From contig NZ_JBBYXL010000015.1 of assembly GCF_039655865.1 (NCBI RefSeq), forward strand, positions 62,001 through 126,000: a DNA stretch of 64,000 nucleotides, read 5' to 3'. The position numbers and the translations under genes are program-made. This document shows, one piece after another, positions 57,128 to 60,776 of this stretch (its first letter is position 1; the number at the start of each line of letters is the position of its first letter). Below the pieces are notes generated by a model. It saw nothing but the letters and a program-made list of their open reading frames with translations. It was not told where the DNA came from and made no database searches. The stretch is from Prosthecobacter sp. SYSU 5D2. GTDB lineage: Bacteria; Verrucomicrobiota; Verrucomicrobiia; Verrucomicrobiales; Verrucomicrobiaceae.

Positions 57128-58180
57128 TCATCGCTTGTACAGCATCAGCACCCGGAACAGCCGCCCCATGAAGGCCGGATGCGTCAGGGAATGATACTGC
57201 CGCAGCAGCGCCTGGGTATTCGTATCCGTTTTTCCCTCCAGACCGGCCAGCACGGATAAACCAAGTTTGCCCAGGAACCGGCCCTGCAGCTCATACGTCC
57301 GCAGTTTCATGCCTGCGGATTCCGCCACCTCGATCAGCCGCGTAAAGTTCACATGCGTAGTCAGGTCGCATTCGCCCAGGTCCTCCAGCACGCGGTCATC
57401 CGTCTGATGGCCCTTATACCGGCGCAGGGTGCCGGTCTTGCGTTCCGGCGAATACAATTCCGCCTCATCAAAGCCGTAATCGGCGACGTAAACCGCCCCG
57501 CAAAAAGGCGCGGCGGCCAGTTCGGCCATCCAGTCCAGCGCTGCCAGATTGACCTCGGTGGTGTATCCTTCCCCCAGATCCACGGGCAGCCGTTTAAGCT
57601 CGGCAGCCAGTTTTTCAGAGGACGGCGGGCCGGGTATAAACCCCAGGCCATCGCCCTCCCTCTGAACGTAGAGCTCCTGCCATGCGGCACCATCCCAGCG
57701 CACCAGGTGTACCGGCATGGCATCTGGCAGCTCATTACAAACATAAAACGCAGGAACGGCAGGCAAATCCGCCAGCGAGGCGACCCAGCGCACACGTTCT
57801 TCAAAATGCGCAAGCCGTTGACGCTGAGCATCTTCGTATCGAGGATTCGGTTCCACGATGAAATAAGGTACATCCACCGCAGCGAGGATGTCCTCTGCCA
57901 GCTGGCCGTCATGCGCCGCCTGCTCGATGATGACAAAATCCGCCGGACTGCCCATCTCCGCCTTGAGTTCCAGGGCCAGTTTTCCCAGCAATCTGCCATA
58001 CAGCGGTCCCACCGAAACGGCGGTATAAAAATCCCCGCTACGCCCGATCCGGCGCGGCCCCGGACCATAATATCCATATTCGGGGTGGTACAGAGCCTGG
58101 TCCATCACCTCGGCAAACGTCAGCCTGCTGGAAAATGAAGCGGAAATCTTGTCGTGCAAAATGCTTGTCAAGGTGGTCAT
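57128..58180 (-). CDS. MidA/NDUFAF7-type SAM-dependent methyltransferase
   Basis: A 350-residue protein of the MidA/NDUFAF7 family (PF02636). The N-terminal ITFAEVMDQALYHPEYGYYGPG-like segment (SRLTFAEVMDQALYHPEYGYY) is characteristic, followed by GDFYTAVSVGPLYGRLLGKL, a SAM-binding region (IIEQAAHDGQLAEDIL, VEPNPRYEDAQR), the NELPDAMPVHLVRW block and ADYGFDEAELYSPERKTGTLRRYKGHQ. In mitochondria the homologue methylates an Arg in the 49-kDa (NuoD-like) subunit of complex I; a similar role in bacteria is plausible but not proven. The start at 58178-58180 is chosen over a 9-codon longer frame. Divergent from the PBP gene with a 70-nt gap. Confidence 0.9.
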   Translation of the reverse strand: MTTLTSILHDKISASFSSRLTFAEVMDQALYHPEYGYYGPGPRRIGRSGDFYTAVSVGPLYGRLLGKLALELKAEMGSPADFVIIEQAAHDGQLAEDILAAVDVPYFIVEPNPRYEDAQRQRLAHFEERVRWVASLADLPAVPAFYVCNELPDAMPVHLVRWDGAAWQELYVQREGDGLGFIPGPPSSEKLAAELKRLPVDLGEGYTTEVNLAALDWMAELAAAPFCGAVYVADYGFDEAELYSPERKTGTLRRYKGHQTDDRVLEDLGECDLTTHVNFTRLIEVAESAGMKLRTYELQGRFLGKLGLSVLAGLEGKTDTNTQALLRQYHSLTHPAFMGRLFRVLMLYKR

Positions 58181-58250
58181 TGGGAAACAAGTGGCGCAAA
58201 CGCACAACAGCCATTAAGTTATCACCCCTTGCAATCAAGGGCATCCCCTC

Positions 58251-60776
58251 ATGTTTGGCAAAGATTTGGAAACTAAACCCCAGACGAACTGGCGCGGCGA
58301 GACCGGGCTGAAGCTTCCCTTTTACCGTCGTGTCTGGTTCAGCGCACTCATGGCCCTGTTGATCCTGGTCGGTCTGACCGGTCTCGGCACGTATGCCATC
58401 ATCGTAGCACCCTTGCATGAAAAAGCCCAGACCTATGACCTGGAGGAAATCCGCAAACTGGAGGCCGCCAGCATCATTTATGACCGCAACGGCGAGGAGC
58501 TTTCCCGCATCTACGTGCTTAATCGCACCCCGGTGCCGATCAAAGAGGTGCCCCAGCATTTCATTGATGCGCTGACGGCCCAGGAAGACAGCCGCTTTTT
58601 CCAGCATGACGGAGTGGACTACATCGGCCTCACCCGTGCCGTGATTGAAAACATCAAAGCAGGCCGCACCACCCAGGGTGCCAGTACCATCACCCAGCAG
58701 CTTGCCCGGCAGACCTTCGGCCTCATGGAGAAGAAGTACAAACGCAAGATCGTCGAGGCGTTTGTGGCCCAGCGGATTGAGAAGAAGTTTACCAAACCGG
58801 AGATCCTGGAACTTTATCTGAACCGCATTTTCTTCGGTAAAAATTTCTACGGCATCCAGGCGGCTGCGCTCGGTTACTTTGGCAAAGATGCCAGGGAACT
58901 GACCGTGGATGAAGCCGCCACCATTGCCGGCCTGATCAAAAGCCCCAACAACATTGAGCCCATCGGCCATCCGGAACGGGCGGTCAAGGAACGCAATTAC
59001 GTGCTGGAGCGCATGGTCATTGAGGGCAGCCTGAGCCGTGGGGATGCAGAGCGCTTCAAGCTGAAGCCCATGGTCACCGCCCCTCAAACCAGTGATCCCA
59101 GGCTAAGCTACGTTTTCGACGAAGTCCGTCAGGAGGTGGTTTCCATTGTCGGCGAGGAACGGGCGGCCATCGGCGGTTTTCAAATCTACACCAGCATTGA
59201 CAAGGATCTGCAAAAGGCGGCCGAGATTGCAATGAAAAAACGCCTGGCCGAGGTGGAGACCCGCGAAGGGTATGCCCATCAGACCTACACCCAGTTCCGC
59301 GGCATTCTGGGAGAGTGGTTCGGCAAAAAGACGAAAGGCGAACTCACGCCGGAAATGTCCCGGCCCATTCCCGAATACCTGCAGGGGGCGGCCATCGTCA
59401 TGGACAACACGGACGGCTCCATCCTGGCCATGGTGGGCGGGCGTGACTTCATTGACAGCCAGTATAACCGCGCCACCGACGGGGTGCGCCCGGTAGGCAC
59501 GGCGTTCACACCCTTTGTCTATGCCGCCGCCTTTTCCAAACCCGGTTACTTTCCGATGAGCCCCCTCGCCGATGAACCCCTGGACAACCGGCGGGTCATG
59601 ATCGGCGGCCTGACCGGCATCCTGGGTGAGTGGGGCATGGAAGTTCCCGATCCCAAATGGTCCCGCAACCCCATCAGCGCCCGTGAGGCCCTGGTAGGCT
59701 CCCACAATTCTGCCACGGTCCGCCTTGGCGAGCGCATTGCTTTGGAAGGCGGGCGTATCCGTCAGGATTTCCGGGATTTCGCCAAACTCGCCGGCATTCG
59801 CACTCCGCTGCGGGAATTCCCCTCCACTTTCCTGGGGGCCACGGAACTCCGGCTGGATGAAATGTGCCTCGCCTATTCCTGCTTTCCCACATTAGGAAAG
59901 CGCCCGCCGAAGCAGCACCTCATCCAGCGCATCACCGATTTCCGTGGCAAGACCGTCTTCCAGCTTGATGAGAAGACGCTGCAGCCGGTCCGCGCCATGG
60001 ATGAGATCGCCGCCTACCAGACCCATACCTGCCTGACGGAAGCCCTGCATCGCGGCACAGGCGCGCCATCCATCGAATATGGCCTGGGTGATTTCCCGGC
60101 AGGCGGAAAAACCGGTACCCATTATGAATCCAAGGACTTGTGGTTCCTGGGTTATACCTCGGCAGTGACCTGCGGTGTGTGGGTGGGCTTTGACCGGCAT
60201 AAAACCATCTATCCCGGTGCCTTCTCCAACAAGATCGCCCTTCCGATCTGGACGGACATCATCAATGCCTCCACCAAGGTGCGGACACCCATGGAAATCA
60301 ATCCGCCAGAGTCCGCCGAGCGCATCGAGATCTGCCGGGTCAGCGGCCTGCGGGCCAGCGACTTCTGCTATGACAAGGTCAAGGGACCCGACGGTGTTGA
60401 GCGTTCTGTGCGTAGCACGTATTCTGAATATCTCCGCCCCGGCACCAGCTTTAACATGACCTGCCCAGTCCATACCGGCGAAGGGCTGCCTGCAGATCTG
60501 GCCCGTTTTCACCAGTCCATTCAAAACACCACGGATACGGCGCTTTTGGCCGAAGCTAGCAAGTTCGCCAATGTGGAACCGGTGTATCTTCAGGATCCCA
60601 TCATTATAGGTGAGGACCCCTACAATTCTGAAAAGCCCATTCTGCGTGCCCGGCCGGTGAATGATGACGGCACTCCGATCCTGCGGGCTCTTCCCGTGGG
60701 TGTGGATGAAAGCGGGATTTCTGAACAGCCGGTCATCAAACTCAAGCCGCCGCCACCGATGAAAATCGAGTTGTAA
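58251..60776 (+). CDS. Class A penicillin-binding protein with intact transglycosylase and degenerate transpeptidase
   Basis: An 841-residue bifunctional PBP-like protein. N-terminal cytoplasmic tail, one membrane helix (about 30-53), then a GT51 transglycosylase (about 70-270) with catalytic Glu112 in TAQEDSRFFQHDGVD and intact GASTITQQLARQTF and KFTKPEILELYLNRIFFG motifs. The transpeptidase domain follows (about 370-720). Its SxN motif (Ser484-His-Asn486) and KTG motif (Lys620-Thr-Gly) are present. The SxxK site reads RPVGTAFTPFVYAAAF, with Thr417 where Ser and Thr420 where Lys should be; I checked the codons ACG (59499-59501) and ACA (59508-59510). The nucleophile is therefore lost and this domain is probably non-catalytic. 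A roughly 120-residue C-terminal extension follows. Confidence 0.93.
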   Translation: MFGKDLETKPQTNWRGETGLKLPFYRRVWFSALMALLILVGLTGLGTYAIIVAPLHEKAQTYDLEEIRKLEAASIIYDRNGEELSRIYVLNRTPVPIKEVPQHFIDALTAQEDSRFFQHDGVDYIGLTRAVIENIKAGRTTQGASTITQQLARQTFGLMEKKYKRKIVEAFVAQRIEKKFTKPEILELYLNRIFFGKNFYGIQAAALGYFGKDARELTVDEAATIAGLIKSPNNIEPIGHPERAVKERNYVLERMVIEGSLSRGDAERFKLKPMVTAPQTSDPRLSYVFDEVRQEVVSIVGEERAAIGGFQIYTSIDKDLQKAAEIAMKKRLAEVETREGYAHQTYTQFRGILGEWFGKKTKGELTPEMSRPIPEYLQGAAIVMDNTDGSILAMVGGRDFIDSQYNRATDGVRPVGTAFTPFVYAAAFSKPGYFPMSPLADEPLDNRRVMIGGLTGILGEWGMEVPDPKWSRNPISAREALVGSHNSATVRLGERIALEGGRIRQDFRDFAKLAGIRTPLREFPSTFLGATELRLDEMCLAYSCFPTLGKRPPKQHLIQRITDFRGKTVFQLDEKTLQPVRAMDEIAAYQTHTCLTEALHRGTGAPSIEYGLGDFPAGGKTGTHYESKDLWFLGYTSAVTCGVWVGFDRHKTIYPGAFSNKIALPIWTDIINASTKVRTPMEINPPESAERIEICRVSGLRASDFCYDKVKGPDGVERSVRSTYSEYLRPGTSFNMTCPVHTGEGLPADLARFHQSIQNTTDTALLAEASKFANVEPVYLQDPIIIGEDPYNSEKPILRARPVNDDGTPILRALPVGVDESGISEQPVIKLKPPPPMKIEL

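Follow-up and report, generated by a model that had tools for sequence, protein, structure and literature searches.

Class A penicillin-binding proteins (PBPs) are defined as bifunctional enzymes and as targets of beta-lactams. Polymerisation and cross-linking are divided between proteins in the systems formed by SEDS proteins (RodA/FtsW) and class B PBPs, and monofunctional glycosyltransferases of the MtgA/SgtB type carry out polymerisation only. In E. coli, the engineered PBP1b variant S510A is able to polymerise lipid II and to support YcbB in vivo; E233M is not (excerpt of PMC5089857). In C. difficile, a transpeptidase (TP)-dead PBP1 still permits septum synthesis although growth fails (excerpt of PMC12539705). 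Akkermansia is counted as retaining a class A PBP in an excerpt of PMC8406291. No description of a natural TP-dead class A PBP of the kind reported here was found in searches of open-access literature that covered titles and abstract openings.

Domain organization and predicted structure

A class A PBP-derived protein with a predicted dead TP domain is encoded at 58251..60776 (+ strand) of the window, the whole stretch of 64,000 nucleotides that was analysed. This assignment rests on the open frame, Pfam, an AF2 model and matches to solved class A PBPs. The reading frame starts with ATG at 58251, its stop codon ends at 60776, and it encodes 841 amino acids. A hydrophobic N-terminal stretch (residues 28–60; 58332..58430, + strand), judged hydrophobic by eye and helical in the AF2 model, is a probable membrane anchor. 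The GT51 glycosyltransferase domain (residues 81–255; 58491..59015, + strand) scores 209.1 bits with the Pfam Transgly model PF00912, against a cut-off of 27. Within it, E112, Q142-G143, S145-T146 and E169 are invariant across 51 aligned sequences, in agreement with the initial annotation, which had called the GT51 motifs normal. E112 and E169 are presumably the catalytic residues.

The pseudo-TP domain (residues 376–676, with bounds set by us; 59376..60278, + strand) is supported by PF00905, the fold match and dN/dS. It passes the PF00905 transpeptidase model narrowly (22.6 bits, cut-off 22.1), and Pfam annotation still gives the protein a transpeptidase domain. At the former SxxK site (59496..59510, + strand; ggc acg gcg ttc aca), G416-T417-A418-F419-T420 followed by Pro stands in place of GSxxKP, with T417 and T420 aligned to the Ser and Lys of solved PBP1a chains. 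The frame, the coordinates and this alignment bear out the earlier reading of Thr-Ala-Phe-Thr for Ser-x-x-Lys. The SxN motif (S484-H485-N486; 59700..59708, + strand) and the KTG motif (K620-T-G; 60108..60116, + strand) are both kept in this protein, as had also been noted. The segment GILGEWGME (residues 456–464; 59616..59642, + strand) is a subfamily signature that occupies the place of W-x-P-x-N in SxxK paralogues.

The AF2 model, built from a 51-row alignment, has a mean pLDDT of 82.1. Values of at least 90 were obtained in 26 of the 31 ten-residue blocks between residues 371 and 680, and blocks around GEWGxE reach 80–85. The closest solved folds are class A PBPs, namely A. baumannii PBP1a (Z 45–47) and 4oon (Z 44.3; VIA-align), and the pseudo-TP domain matches the TP domains of these proteins.

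Comparison with known systems

With the bifunctional class A PBPs (A. baumannii PBP1a, 3udf/3ue1; P. aeruginosa-type, 4oon), the protein shares the domain order, the GT51 motifs, the C-terminal TP fold (VIA-align Z 44–47), SxN and KTG. In contrast to them, it lacks the SxxK nucleophile and base, has GILGEWGxE in the W-x-P-x-N region, and scores 449 bits with NCBIfam TIGR02074 (PBP_1a_fam), below the curated cut-off of 508.75. Judged by sequence, the subfamily is homologous to class A PBPs yet does not have the SxxK that defines them. Like the MtgA/SgtB-type glycosyltransferases, the protein is predicted to polymerise only, but it keeps a complete TP fold under selection and gives 126.3 bits with TIGR02070, below the curated cut-off of 182.65. 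The arrangement proposed here is that of PBP1b S510A, a dead-TP polymerase working with another cross-linker (excerpt of PMC5089857). However, that variant is man-made, whereas the present case is natural and class-wide, with the Lys lost as well. The separation of polymerisation from cross-linking also recalls SEDS/class B systems, but the polymerase is PF01098 there and GT51 here, where the split arises within a class A PBP.

Distribution and motif variation

Matches were taken in at E 1e-140 for the order, 1e-100 for the class and 1e-125 for the phylum, and 22 genomes were re-searched at 1e-60. The subfamily was found in all 68 searched genomes of the window's family. T417 is present in 67/67 readable family genomes and Lys at 420 in none of them; the remaining genome, G038, yields a piece without the site. 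Sequencing error or chance is ruled out by this recurrence of Thr without Lys, and a pseudogene or decay in a single genome is ruled out by the same 67 genomes together with the low dN/dS described below. Among 69 readable family rows, which take in a second G057 fragment and a second copy in G026, the 417/420 pairs are T/T (33), T/I (20), T/L (12), T/M (3) and T/V (1).

At the order level, a match is present in 259 of 288 genomes. G090 (2.2e-138) and G126 (2.5e-139) carry a subfamily member, and their absence from the order-level matches is a threshold effect; G158, of the same order, has one class A match at 1e-60, which is of the SxxK type. The class search matched 160 of 384 genomes, some possibly through SxxK paralogues, and the phylum sample gave 51 of 387, all from the same class. 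Since the subfamily occurs in many distant families, a role restricted to Prosthecobacter stalks (prosthecae) is ruled out.

Motif positions were tallied in 171 subfamily rows, which combine the family sample with hand-picked members of other families rather than a random sample of the class, and which include contig fragments (one G057 gene twice, G038 without a readable site) and a second copy, L079. Position 417 is T in 165 rows and S in five (gap 1). Position 420 varies widely (T 60, L 39, K 25, I 23, F 9, M 6, V 6, G 1, A 1, gap 1), and Lys is absent there in 145 of the 170 readable rows; TxxK is present in 21. Position 484 is S in 112, G in 57 and A in 1 (gap 1), position 486 is N in 130, I in 30, T in 5, V in 3 and L in 2 (gap 1), and position 620 is K in 167 and Q in 2 (gap 2). 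All 31 sampled paralogue rows have S, K, S, N, K, T and G at the equivalent motif positions. E460 and E464 of the signature GILGEWGxE are both Glu in 170/170 readable subfamily rows, and T417, L458, G459, E460, E464 and A657 are among the residues that are near-invariant in the subfamily and different in paralogues. The alignment with relatives that the initial annotation had proposed thus shows the Thr variant to be real in this gene but not peculiar to it, as it marks a subfamily.

The five Ser417 rows comprise four members of genus g22 and L101, which has Leu for Lys. The four from g22 (L092 and L271–L273, family f3) have the full GSAFKP / SKN / KTG set, so loss of the site is not universal in the subfamily. 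No other member seen has SxxK, SxN and KTG all complete, and these four are natural comparison partners of the dead members, with which they make a before-and-after pair. At the other end, three members of family f6 (L098, L099 and L120) have KTG changed to QTS, KTS and QTS, respectively, together with a changed SxN, and all three of their TP motifs are degraded.

A pattern scan demanding Thr supplied the named organisms, the AF2 alignment and the context flanks; its loci were left out of the frequencies because the pattern requires Thr. It includes Verrucomicrobium BvORR106 and BvORR034, whose orthologues read GTAFLPF. A published gene list of Verrucomicrobium spinosum contains three class A PBPs, given without comment (excerpt of PMC4803751), and from these two relatives we infer that one of the three is probably of the dead-TP kind.

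Evolutionary history and selection

With the motif columns removed, a quick LG+G4 tree of 107 rows places the subfamily in one clade apart from the SxxK paralogues (SH-aLRT 100). On this tree, residue 417 needs three changes and the Lys/non-Lys state at 420 needs nine. The free tree nests g22 within the subfamily. A constrained tree in which g22 is sister to a clade of the 90 other members exceeds the free tree by 1.33 in log-likelihood (p-AU 0.522). The sequences are compatible with a possible history in which Ser changed to Thr once and the Lys then changed repeatedly; two changes at 417, or a reversion in g22, are a possible alternative. The g22 members already carry the GEWxxE signature, so under the single-change history the signature would be older than the active-site loss.

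Selection was compared in hand-chosen close pairs; dS approaches or exceeds 1 in many of them, which leaves single ratios rough, and the dN comparison is independent of dS. The pseudo-TP domain gave dN/dS of 0.015–0.067 in 14 of 15 subfamily pairs, the remaining pair being saturated, and the GT51 domain of the same 15 pairs gave 0.004–0.108. The TP domain of live paralogues gave 0.027–0.060 (7 pairs). Both sets share a median TP/GT dN ratio of 0.85, and individual pairs range between 0.28 and 5.0, so that the TP domain evolves faster than the GT domain in some pairs. Purifying selection as strong as that on the GT domain and on live TP domains, together with the domain's own motif GILGEWGxE, indicates that the pseudo-TP domain is maintained rather than decaying. 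The initial annotation had likewise argued for a selected change, and the class-wide conservation and low TP dN/dS bear this out. Its ground for saying so, that the other motifs are retained, carries little weight since SxN is itself eroding across the subfamily; the part concerning KTG holds, its Lys being kept in 167 of 169 readable rows.

Gene neighbourhood

The gene directly upstream is divergently transcribed and encodes a MidA-like SAM-dependent methyltransferase (PF02636, 168.9 bits; 57128..58207, − strand). A midA-like gene takes this position in 79 of 103 distinct loci, that is, the 130 flanked loci minus 16 duplicates and 11 with less than 900 bases upstream. The dnaE gene was seen in 6 of all 130 flanked loci, a count that includes the duplicates and in which downstream flanks are often short. 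The flanked-locus comparison revealed no functional link between the PBP and its neighbours.

Other cell-wall genes

The genome has seven PF00905 matches and three GT51 matches. Two further class A PBPs have SxxK (L005, GSTVKP; L006, GSAIKP), and three PBPs (L001–L003) have SxxK without GT51 and are class-B-like by that criterion. L004, a 269-amino-acid frame with STFK and a PF00905 match, resembles by eye a class D beta-lactamase or a sensor domain. Two SEDS proteins (PF01098) and 16 YkuD (L,D-transpeptidase-like) matches were also found. With SxxK class A PBPs, class-B-like PBPs, SEDS proteins and L,D-transpeptidase-like genes in the same genome, cross-linking is covered elsewhere, and the search for other cross-linking PBPs that the initial annotation had recommended was thereby answered. 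A second, weaker class A match, partial in some cases, occurs in at least 66 of the 68 family genomes, and its SxxK was read in 21 of them. The unusual wall biology of the phylum, to which the initial annotation had appealed, is not needed as a ground: the case stands without it, and those 21 family genomes have an SxxK class A PBP alongside.

Proposed function and alternatives

The protein encoded at 58251..60776 is probably a glycan polymerase that retains its former TP domain as a module with a structural or regulatory rather than a catalytic role. It would be anchored in the inner membrane, where an active GT51 domain would polymerise lipid II into glycan strands. With the Lys gone and Thr in place of Ser, an acyl-enzyme should not form, and neither cross-linking nor acylation by penicillin would then be expected. 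The dead domain would be retained by selection to scaffold or regulate the polymerase, docking a partner or binding a peptide or strand without catalysis. Cross-links would come from the SxxK class A paralogues, from SEDS/class B pairs and possibly from the many L,D-transpeptidases. The initial interpretation as a whole is thus partly supported. A natural, selected polymerase-only PBP beside SxxK paralogues would offer a direct test of the role of the TP domain outside cross-linking.

Other explanations were weighed against the distribution, motif and selection data. Relaxed decay, in which the TP domain is being lost and has no role, would account for the missing catalytic residues, the erosion of SxN and the variable fourth residue. 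However, it is scarcely credible given a dN/dS as low as that of live paralogues, the same median TP/GT dN ratio, the conserved GEWGxE and the absence of internal stops among the subfamily matches listed in the family and order searches. Thr might instead be a working nucleophile assisted by another base, giving a Thr-dependent transpeptidase or carboxypeptidase. The near-fixation of Thr (165/170) beside a drifting fourth residue, the Lys kept next to Thr in 21 rows, KTG in most members and the two fixed GEWGxE glutamates are all in keeping with such an enzyme. Serine PBPs need the SxxK Lys, though, and 145 of 170 rows have T, L, I, F, M, V, G or A at 420, none of them a base; with SxN also eroded in many relatives, we consider this very unlikely. 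The retained KTG, and SxN in many members, are compatible with residual ligand binding, or with weak catalysis in the 21 TxxK rows.

The protein could also be the polymerase partner of an expanded set of L,D-transpeptidases, making strands for 3-3 cross-linked peptidoglycan, for which PBP1b S510A with YcbB is a precedent (excerpt of PMC5089857). Across 188 class genomes, the median number of YkuD matches is 9 (4–18) in 58 that carry the subfamily, 2 (0–8) in 119 without a match at 1e-100 and 5 (3–12) in 11 of unclear status. Family means (12 versus 40 groups) differ with a Mann-Whitney p of 4e-7, a value confounded by kinship, as the families lack independence and two of them, f19 and f53, stand on both sides. 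Yet G158, which lacks the subfamily, has 10 YkuD matches, the SxxK genus g22 has 10, 12, 13 and 16, and some families without the subfamily (f12) have 6–8, so the number of L,D-transpeptidases does not track the loss of the site. YkuD proteins have other jobs besides. The association holds at the level of lineages, but G158 and g22 argue against a tight link; pairing as the sole explanation was rejected, and a partnership of this kind appears rather unlikely.

Within the preferred reading of a polymerase with a non-catalytic TP module, a more specific version can be put forward tentatively. The former active site may act as a non-catalytic sensor whose ligand, taken up without acylation, would be a protein partner, a nascent strand or a stem peptide, and which would gate GT51; the polymerase would in turn feed separate cross-linkers, possibly L,D-transpeptidases. 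The nearly fixed Thr417, the kept KTG and the fixed GEWGxE glutamates would be candidates for the sensor pocket. If true, the penicillin-binding proteins would include a regulatory pseudoenzyme that is class-wide and blind to beta-lactams.

Additional class A-like sequences

Several divergent sequences were seen among the matches. L079 (genome G026, contig C71) is a divergent second copy in which the GT51 motifs also look broken, with LDPRF for EDSRF and SQTITHR in the ASTITQQ region, and both of its domains may be dead. G139, G141, G124, G116 and G143 contain a third class A-like frame, 585–618 amino acids long, and in G139, G124 and G116 it lies near the second class A match. L150 (genome G141) is an SxxK paralogue with an in-frame TGA within the match.
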